Shown piece by piece: positions 3,925-5,736 of a stretch of 34,944 nt of DNA. The stretch is taken from assembly GCA_035635555.1 (NCBI GenBank), contig DASQAT010000014.1, positions 1-34,944 of the forward strand. Reading direction: 5' to 3'. The translations under genes were made by a program, and so were the position numbers. Every line of letters begins with the position of its first letter. The stretch's first letter is position 1. The notes under the pieces were generated by a model, which was not told the DNA's origin, searched no databases, and saw only the letters and a list, made by a program, of their open reading frames with translations. The stretch comes from Candidatus Dormiibacterota bacterium (lineage in GTDB: Bacteria; Acidobacteriota; Polarisedimenticolia; Gp22-AA2).

Positions 3925-5070
3925 ATGGTCGATTTCGCCCTGACGGAAGAGCAGCAGCAGCTCCGCGCCCTGGCGCGCGAATTCGCCCAGAAGGAGATCG
4001 CTCCGAAGGCGGCGCACCACGACCAGACCGGTGAGTTCCCGCGCGAGATCTGCAGGAAGGCGTGGGAGCTCGGTCTCATGAACACGCACGTCCCCGAGGC
4101 CTACGGCGGCCCGGGCCTGGGCGTCCTCGACGGCTGCATGATCGCGGAGGAGATCGCCTGGGGCTGCACCGGCATCGGCACCGCCATGGAGGCCAACACG
4201 CTGGCCGAGGCGCCGGTCATCGTCGGGGGATCGGACGAGCAGAAGAGGCGCTTCCTCGCGCCGATGACGAAGGAGTTCAGGCTCGCGGCCTACTGCGTCA
4301 CCGAGCCGCAGGCCGGCTCCGACGTGCAGGGGATCAAGACGGTCGCCCGCAAAGCGGGGGACGACTACGTGCTGAAGGGATCCAAGATGTGGATCACCAA
4401 CGGCAGCGTCGCCGACTGGTACTTCGTCGTCGCCTACACCGACCCGTCGCAGCGCTACAAGGGGATGAGCGCCTTCGTGGTGCCGCGTGATTCCCCGGGC
4501 ATCGAAGTCGGGAAGAAGGAGCAGAACCTCGGGCAGCGGGCCTCCGACACGCGCGCCGTCACCTTCAACGACGTCAAGGTGCCGAAGGCCAACCTGATCG
4601 GCGAGGAGGGGAAGGGGTTCCTGCTGGCGATGTCGGCATTCGACCACAGCCGGCCGGTCGTGTCGGCGGCCGCCGTCGGCCTCGCCCGCTCGGCGATGGA
4701 CCACGCCATCCGCTACGCCAAGGAGCGCACCACCTTCGGCGTGCCGATCCACAAGCACCAGGCGCTGGCGTTCATGGTGGCCGAGATGGCGATGAAGATC
4801 GAAGCGGCGCGCCTCCTGGTCTGGCAGTCGGCCTGGAAGATCGACCGGGGCGAGCGCAACACCAAGGAGGCCGCCTTCGCCAAGGCGTTCGCCGCCGACA
4901 CGGCGATGGAGACCGCCCTGAACGCCGTGCAGGTCTTCGGCGGCTATGGTTTCTCGCGCGAGTATCCCGTCGAGAAGCTGATGCGCGACGCCAAGGTGTT
5001 CCAGATCTACGAGGGGACCTCGCAGATCCAGAGGCTGATCATCGCCAAGGAGATCTTCGAGCGCTCCTGA
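3925..5070 (+). CDS. Acyl-CoA dehydrogenase
   Basis: FAD-dependent flavoenzyme that introduces a 2,3-double bond into an acyl-CoA and passes electrons to ETF. The 381-residue length is typical. The order of domains is normal: N-terminal helical part from LTEEQQQLRALAREFA, middle beta domain with YCVTEPQAGSD and KMWITNGSVADW, and C-terminal helical domain with RTTFGVPIHKHQA and QVFGGYGFSREYPVEKLMRDAK. The catalytic base is Glu363 in IYEGTSQIQRL, the position used by short- and medium-chain enzymes rather than isovaleryl-CoA dehydrogenase. The ATG at 3925 gives the family length; a longer reading upstream only overlaps the preceding gene. The methylmalonate-semialdehyde dehydrogenase nearby makes an isobutyryl-CoA role in valine breakdown possible, but chain-length preference cannot be read from the sequence. 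Confidence 0.9.
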   Translation: MVDFALTEEQQQLRALAREFAQKEIAPKAAHHDQTGEFPREICRKAWELGLMNTHVPEAYGGPGLGVLDGCMIAEEIAWGCTGIGTAMEANTLAEAPVIVGGSDEQKRRFLAPMTKEFRLAAYCVTEPQAGSDVQGIKTVARKAGDDYVLKGSKMWITNGSVADWYFVVAYTDPSQRYKGMSAFVVPRDSPGIEVGKKEQNLGQRASDTRAVTFNDVKVPKANLIGEEGKGFLLAMSAFDHSRPVVSAAAVGLARSAMDHAIRYAKERTTFGVPIHKHQALAFMVAEMAMKIEAARLLVWQSAWKIDRGERNTKEAAFAKAFAADTAMETALNAVQVFGGYGFSREYPVEKLMRDAKVFQIYEGTSQIQRLIIAKEIFERS

Positions 5071-5082
5071 GTCGAAGCGGCG

Positions 5083-5700
5083 CTAGCCCTTCAGCGCCTC
5101 GTGCACCTTCCCGACCATCTTCGCGCCGGGGTTGACGAGCGTCTTGTCCCCTTCGTCCTTCCACTTGGAGGGGCAGACCTCGTTGCTCTTCTTCGCCATG
5201 TAGAGGTTGGCCTTGAACTTCCGCATCAGCTCGTCGATGTTGCGGCCGAGGTTGTAGAAGTTCACCTCGGAATTGAAGAGCGTCCCTTCGGGATTGATGA
5301 TGAAGGTGCCGCGCAGGGCCAGCCCGGAGTTCTCGTCGTAGACGCCGAACATCTTTGCGACCTTGCCGGTCGGGTCGGCGCCCATCGGGTAGCGGACGTT
5401 CGCCAGCTCCTTCTCGCTCTTCCGCCAGGCCAGATGGACGAACTTGGTGTCCTCGCTGACCGTGACGATGTCGCACCCCATCTTCACGAACCGCTCGTGC
5501 TGCTCTGCCAGAGCAGCGAATTCGGTCGCTCAGACGAACGTGAAGTCGGCGGGGTAGAAGAACACGACCGTCCAGCGCTTGCCGGCGATCTGATCCTGCA
5601 GACGGAACTTGCCGAAGTCGTCCTTGACGGGGTCGTAGATCTCGAGCTCGAAATCCGGGACCTTCTGCCCAAGCTTCAAAGCCGTGGTGGTTTCCGACAC
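5083..5700 (-). CDS. Selenocysteine-containing 2-Cys peroxiredoxin (AhpC/Prx1 class), UGA at codon 57
   Basis: Thiol/selenol peroxidase that reduces peroxides in the cytoplasm. The frame runs from GTG at 5700 (GGGAGGAA upstream) to TAG at 5083-5085, 205 residues, with one in-frame TGA at 5530-5532. That TGA occupies exactly the peroxidatic cysteine position of the PxxxTxxC motif: Pro50, Thr54, position 57 in PADFTFV-U-ATE. The active-site Arg130 (LRGTFII) and the resolving Cys176 (SNEVCPSKW) are intact. Immediately downstream lies a hairpin fitting the bacterial SECIS rules (separate entry). A nonsense mutation or sequencing error is the alternative, but the exact position, the hairpin and the otherwise undamaged reading frame favour selenocysteine. 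A Sec peroxiredoxin (PrxU) is known from Eubacterium acidaminophilum. The usual Pro after the active residue is Ala here. It is the last gene of a minus-strand cluster after mmsA, and its stop is 12 bp from that of the acyl-CoA dehydrogenase. Confidence 0.85.
5499..5517 (-). promoter_or_regulatory. Bacterial SECIS-like hairpin of the peroxiredoxin
   Basis: On the coding strand GCTGCTCT-GGC-AGAGCAGC forms eight perfect pairs around a three-base loop that begins with GG. It starts 12 bases after the UGA, so 20 bases separate the UGA from the apical loop; bacterial SECIS elements need roughly 16-37 bases and a G in the first two loop positions. The stem is built from Ala codons GCT, GCT and GCA, which are unusual beside the GCC/GCG used elsewhere, as expected if RNA structure constrains the codons. 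Confidence 0.75.
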
Positions 5701-5736
5701 GCTGTCGTTCCTCCCTGAAAGTCACGCAGAGGGCGG

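Follow-up and report, generated by a model that had tools for sequence, protein, structure and literature searches.

The locus at positions 5083 to 5700 raises a simple question: does an AhpC-type peroxiredoxin frame with TGA in place of the catalytic Cys codon encode a selenoprotein, or is the gene broken, or its TGA read in some other way? It lies in a stretch of 34,944 nucleotides, which we call the window. An earlier note, made from the letters of the window, had proposed an AhpC-type peroxiredoxin with selenocysteine (Sec) at the peroxidatic position.

A peroxiredoxin frame with a single in-frame TGA

We found that the minus strand from 5700 to 5083 holds one 205-residue frame, intact except for a single TGA (translated with TGA as U). 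The coordinates, the strand and the place of the lone TGA (5532-5530, on the column of the peroxidatic Cys) are as the earlier note gave them. So are the resolving Cys176 (TGC, 5175-5173) and the active-site Arg130, both of which are retained and invariant in 33 relatives. The features of the locus, all on the minus strand, are as follows.

5083-5700, minus strand: coding sequence of a predicted Sec-containing AhpC-class 2-Cys peroxiredoxin; GTG start, TAG stop, 205 amino acids (translation, Pfam, structure)
5530-5532, minus strand: TGA codon, predicted Sec57, peroxidatic position in PADFTFV-U-ATE (56 loci have TGA in this column)
5499-5517, minus strand: putative SECIS hairpin, 8-bp stem GCTGCTCT/AGAGCAGC, loop GGC (fold, codon conservation, compensatory changes at three pairs)
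5311-5313, minus strand: codon for Arg130 of the active site (no substitution among the 33 aligned relatives)
5173-5175, minus strand: TGC for the resolving Cys176, within a CP..W motif (invariant across 33 aligned relatives)
5710-5716, minus strand: putative ribosome-binding site AGGGAGG, 9 nt 5' of the GTG start (read by eye)

Translated with Cys at the TGA, the protein matched the Pfam family AhpC-TSA (E 2.5e-36) and solved chains of AhpC and Prx (E to 1.5e-45). An AlphaFold2 model, also made with Cys, had a 2-Cys Prx/AhpC fold (pLDDT 92), and the nearest PDB folds were the 2-Cys Prx 5zte and the AhpC 1n8j. P50, T54, C/U57, R130 and C176 were invariant in the 33 aligned sequences, in agreement with the motif PxxxTxx[C/U]. 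The modelled peroxiredoxin fold, the Arg and the resolving Cys place the predicted protein in the AhpC/Prx1-class 2-Cys group, with predicted activity.

The TGA column in homologues

We scanned a single genome for each GTDB species, which yielded 68 homologous loci. The catalytic column was TGA, followed by Ala-Thr-Glu, in 56 loci of the clade, a count that takes in the window itself and loci from a separate search. It was TGC or TGT in 28 other matches. Such an alignment, to see Cys or TGA in this column, was a check that the earlier note had proposed.

Among the TGA-form records that name a phylum, the TGA forms span at least seven phyla (Nitrospirota, Acidobacteriota, Rokuibacteriota, Planctomycetota, Krumholzibacteriota, Methylomirabilota, Myxococcota, Binatota). 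The TGA form was sparse in the window's own phylum, probably Acidobacteriota going by the nearest named records, where it was motif-confirmed in 8 of 297 genomes, 7 of these 8 with selA. The gene was present in 83 of 296 sampled genomes of Nitrospirota, and had one TGA in 54 of the 296. One relative (L098; G090:C525:4341-4931) has one TGA and two TAG codons in the matched stretch and an illegible active-site motif; it is probably a decayed or misassembled copy.

A conserved hairpin downstream of the TGA

The hairpin GCTGCTCT-GGC-AGAGCAGC starts 12 nt 3' of the TGA, with 20 nt from the TGA to the loop, and its 8-bp stem and GGC loop are exactly as claimed. Published criteria for bacterial SECIS elements are a loop of 3-9 nt, a stem of 4-16 bp, a G within the first two loop positions, a distance of 16-37 nt from the UGA and an MFE of at most -7.5 (PMC13188914). 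This hairpin falls within all of them, with a 3-nt loop that starts with GG, a stem of 8 bp, a spacing of 20 nt and a computed MFE of -13.2 kcal/mol.

As the fold of a single sequence the element is unexceptional against dinucleotide shuffles (a weak z-score of -0.80 for the 40-nt piece alone). When the window's own peptide was recoded synonymously, 28 of 5000 recodings folded equally stably, and 1 of 5000 retained a stem of 7 bp whose loop starts with G. An Rfam scan of the window at the gathering threshold gave zero matches. An additional 5-bp lower stem under the hairpin (columns 6-10 with 40-44) was unsupported, being merely 70% paired.

The hairpin codons GCT GCT CTG GCA GAG CAG showed zero synonymous variation in the 56 loci, each codon being tested on the 51-55 of 56 sequences that retain the amino acid. 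Mean normalised codon entropy was 0.78 of the maximum across 120 other columns of the gene in the same loci, and GCT is the rarest Ala codon outside the hairpin in these genes (58/719). This invariance describes the first set and is not absolute, as wobble positions vary in some additional Nitrospirota Sec forms. Across the alignment of TGA forms, 98.9% of stem cells pair. Both sides had changed at three stem pairs (C-G to A-U; U-A to C-G; U-A to C-G or G-U), whereas shuffles gave 0.6, and the covariation signal disappeared when the partner strand was slid along. The loop is GTC in some Planctomycetota, with the first G retained. The hairpin sequence is gone from the Cys forms examined.

Decoding of the TGA

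The earlier note had supposed that the organism decodes Sec and had suggested a search for sel genes and tRNA-Sec, whose absence from a complete genome was its refuting case. The host genome, a 4.28-Mb draft in 59 contigs (99% complete), has them all: a tRNA-Sec with anticodon UCA (ARAGORN and Rfam; 75.9 bits, gathering score 47), selA (542 bits), selB (333.7 bits) and selD (365.8 bits), the last likewise containing an in-frame TGA. That one TGA lies at the catalytic position of selD (L017; G000:C46:119634-120566) in the context ARSGG-U-AAKLSP, and SelD is probably itself a selenoprotein in this genome, a known pattern. Upstream of the tRNA-Sec gene (L001:1497-1594), at a distance of 47 nt and in the same orientation, is a tyrosine recombinase-like ORF (L001:1642-2805); an integrated element may adjoin this tRNA locus.

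We did not find selA in a few TGA-form genomes (G104 and the genomes of L062 and L081), which may be incomplete assemblies. The presence of selA was of no use in telling Sec forms from Cys forms, because most genomes with the Cys form have it too (8/11, compared with 13/15 genomes with the Sec form).

Might UGA be read here as another amino acid, either Cys, through a UCA tRNA charged with Cys, or Trp, through reassignment of the code? Cys-inserting tRNAs with a UCA anticodon are known from some bacteria. However, the UCA tRNA of this genome was identified as tRNA-Sec by both ARAGORN and Rfam, and selA, selB and selD accompany it. In addition, the neighbouring acyl-CoA dehydrogenase gene ends in a TGA stop (5068-5070), and a conserved SECIS would be needless if UGA were reassigned. 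We consider such a reading very improbable. A pseudogene, or a Cys gene with a wrongly read codon, has next to no likelihood. We rejected a nonsense mutation and a sequencing error alike, given that the TGA column and its hairpin are both conserved: a change of TGC to TGA would look alike in one genome alone, but the same TGA stands in 56 separately recorded loci of several phyla, the frame is intact past it, and the codons downstream are under constraint at the RNA level.

Because the genome has the sel machinery, the TGA recurs in 56 loci, and the hairpin is conserved, covaries and agrees with the SECIS criteria, we conclude that this is almost certainly a selenoprotein gene and not a pseudogene. 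The predicted product is an AhpC/Prx1-class 2-Cys peroxiredoxin in which Sec replaces the peroxidatic Cys. On this point the interpretation in the earlier note was borne out by the machinery, the conserved column and the covariation of the SECIS; what it said about the residue after Sec was not, and the protein does not belong to PrxU as NCBIfam defines it.

Relation to PrxU and other peroxiredoxins

The gene has the same catalytic position as the curated PrxU family (NCBIfam NF040737), is of similar length, and has NF040737 among its best models. However, with the cut-off at 270 bits, it scored 175.1 and its clade 165-190, and true PrxU genes in the same phylum reached 370-420 bits. A single Sec clade that includes PrxU was rejected (AU p 0.005), and the SECIS sequences differ. 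Membership in PrxU in the NCBIfam sense was rejected on score and tree, and we regard it as highly unlikely. In a tree of 73 sequences the two Sec groups stood apart, with the window's group inside a clade of Cys AhpCs. In terms of sequence phylogeny, the window gene's clade is a second predicted Sec clade, distinct from PrxU and set within the Cys AhpCs.

Like PrxU of Eubacterium acidaminophilum (NF040737), the window gene has a TxxU motif with predicted peroxidatic Sec, an in-frame TGA and, downstream of that, a hairpin. Unlike it, the window gene is only ~42% identical to the two PrxU genes compared (L114, L115), the SECIS of PrxU is of the type TCGGC-GGTC-GCCGA, and PrxU has both UPTE and UATE. 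In the window's phylum, 24 of 297 genomes had true PrxU genes (L116-L139), every one with TGA; the residue after Sec was Pro in 12/24 (UPTE) and Ala in 12/24 (UATE). Ala follows Sec in 56/56 sequences of the window's clade. The earlier note had called Ala at this position uncommon; given these counts in the clade and in PrxU, it is ordinary. Ala after Sec was found in two separate Sec clades.

The gene shares its fold, PxxxTxx[C/U], Arg and resolving Cys-Pro motif with Cys AhpC (TIGR03137; Salmonella AhpC, 1n8j). It differs in having Sec for Cys, and it missed the cut-off of the AhpC equivalog TIGR03137 (180.3 bits, cut-off 272). The clade members tested fall below the NCBIfam cut-offs for both AhpC and PrxU.

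Earlier work predicted an AhpC with TAG-coded Sec in Blastococcus saxobsidens (PMC5330540), as well as selenoproteins of the Prx-like COG0450 kind from the Sargasso Sea (PMC1088965). By their descriptions alone, these resemble the window gene in being AhpC-class with predicted Sec. Literature searches by name and phylum, which gave partial coverage, found no paper on the window's Sec-AhpC clade. The principle of an AhpC-class selenoprotein is known from these earlier predictions; the case for this gene is firm.

Exchange between Sec and Cys

Twelve Cys-Ala forms without the hairpin branch within the Sec clade or next to it, at roughly five points, and L056 (Planctomycetota) was nested within the Sec clade in the best trees. 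On the first tree, placing all Sec forms in one clade gave an AU p of 0.023, and holding L056 outside gave 0.015. With a larger set containing more Nitrospirota, a single Sec clade was no longer rejected (p 0.15), and the significance of Sec-to-Cys reversals seen on the first tree vanished.

Reversal from Sec to Cys within the clade is likely. A possible alternative is a Cys-Ala ancestor that predated Sec. Since a single Sec clade stands (p 0.15) and such an ancestor is possible, we do not take the link between Ala and Sec as causal. Ten Nitrospirota Cys forms have Ala and lack the SECIS sequence (L173, L174, L179, L180, L183, L184, L188, L191, L194 and L195). Ala-retaining Nitrospirota Cys forms such as these are candidates for Sec-to-Cys reversal.

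Sec-to-Cys changes are rare and are documented mainly for FdhA and SelD (2026 review, PMC13188914). For the clade as a whole we tentatively suggest, with slightly less than even confidence, that a broad AhpC clade gained Sec apart from PrxU, with one stereotyped SECIS, and that it returned to Cys several times, keeping Ala and losing the hairpin.

Proposed mechanism and genomic setting

In the Prx1/AhpC mechanism the peroxidatic residue attacks peroxide, a resolving Cys follows, and a thioredoxin-like donor reduces the enzyme. From the sequence and the genome content, we propose that SelB and Sec-tRNA-Sec(UCA) would bind the hairpin, which begins 12 nt past the UGA, and decode that codon as Sec. 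By analogy with the family, the Sec selenolate would reduce peroxide and become a selenenic acid, which Cys176 of the partner subunit would resolve to a selenenylsulfide. A thioredoxin-type reductant would then regenerate the enzyme. No AhpF scored above the cut-off in the genome, the best matches spanning the reductase part only, and thioredoxin therefore appears the likelier donor.

In the window, an aldehyde dehydrogenase gene on the same strand ends ~60 nt upstream of the peroxiredoxin gene, and the acyl-CoA dehydrogenase gene is convergent with it. These two neighbours co-occur in close kin only. A gene for a Fur-family regulator lies near the peroxiredoxin gene in the loci of nine relatives. 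Genes for a flavodiiron protein and desulfoferrodoxin are nearby in Nitrospirota (L039, L040, L042, L043, L047, L061), partly with an FMN reductase too. Surroundings of the Fur, flavodiiron and desulfoferrodoxin kind are in line with a role in peroxide and oxygen defence.

Implications

Ordinary annotation probably misses this gene. In many genomes of Nitrospirota, Acidobacteriota, Rokubacteria and Planctomycetota, a gene caller that ends frames at TGA would probably cut it short, and such truncation would hide a selenium-dependent peroxide defence. The clade supplies Sec and Cys enzymes that are close relatives, with and without a SECIS, and that bear on the benefit of Sec to a peroxiredoxin and on the direction of Sec/Cys exchange. 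If the proposed history is true, the clade would be a natural series for the reversal of Sec to Cys.
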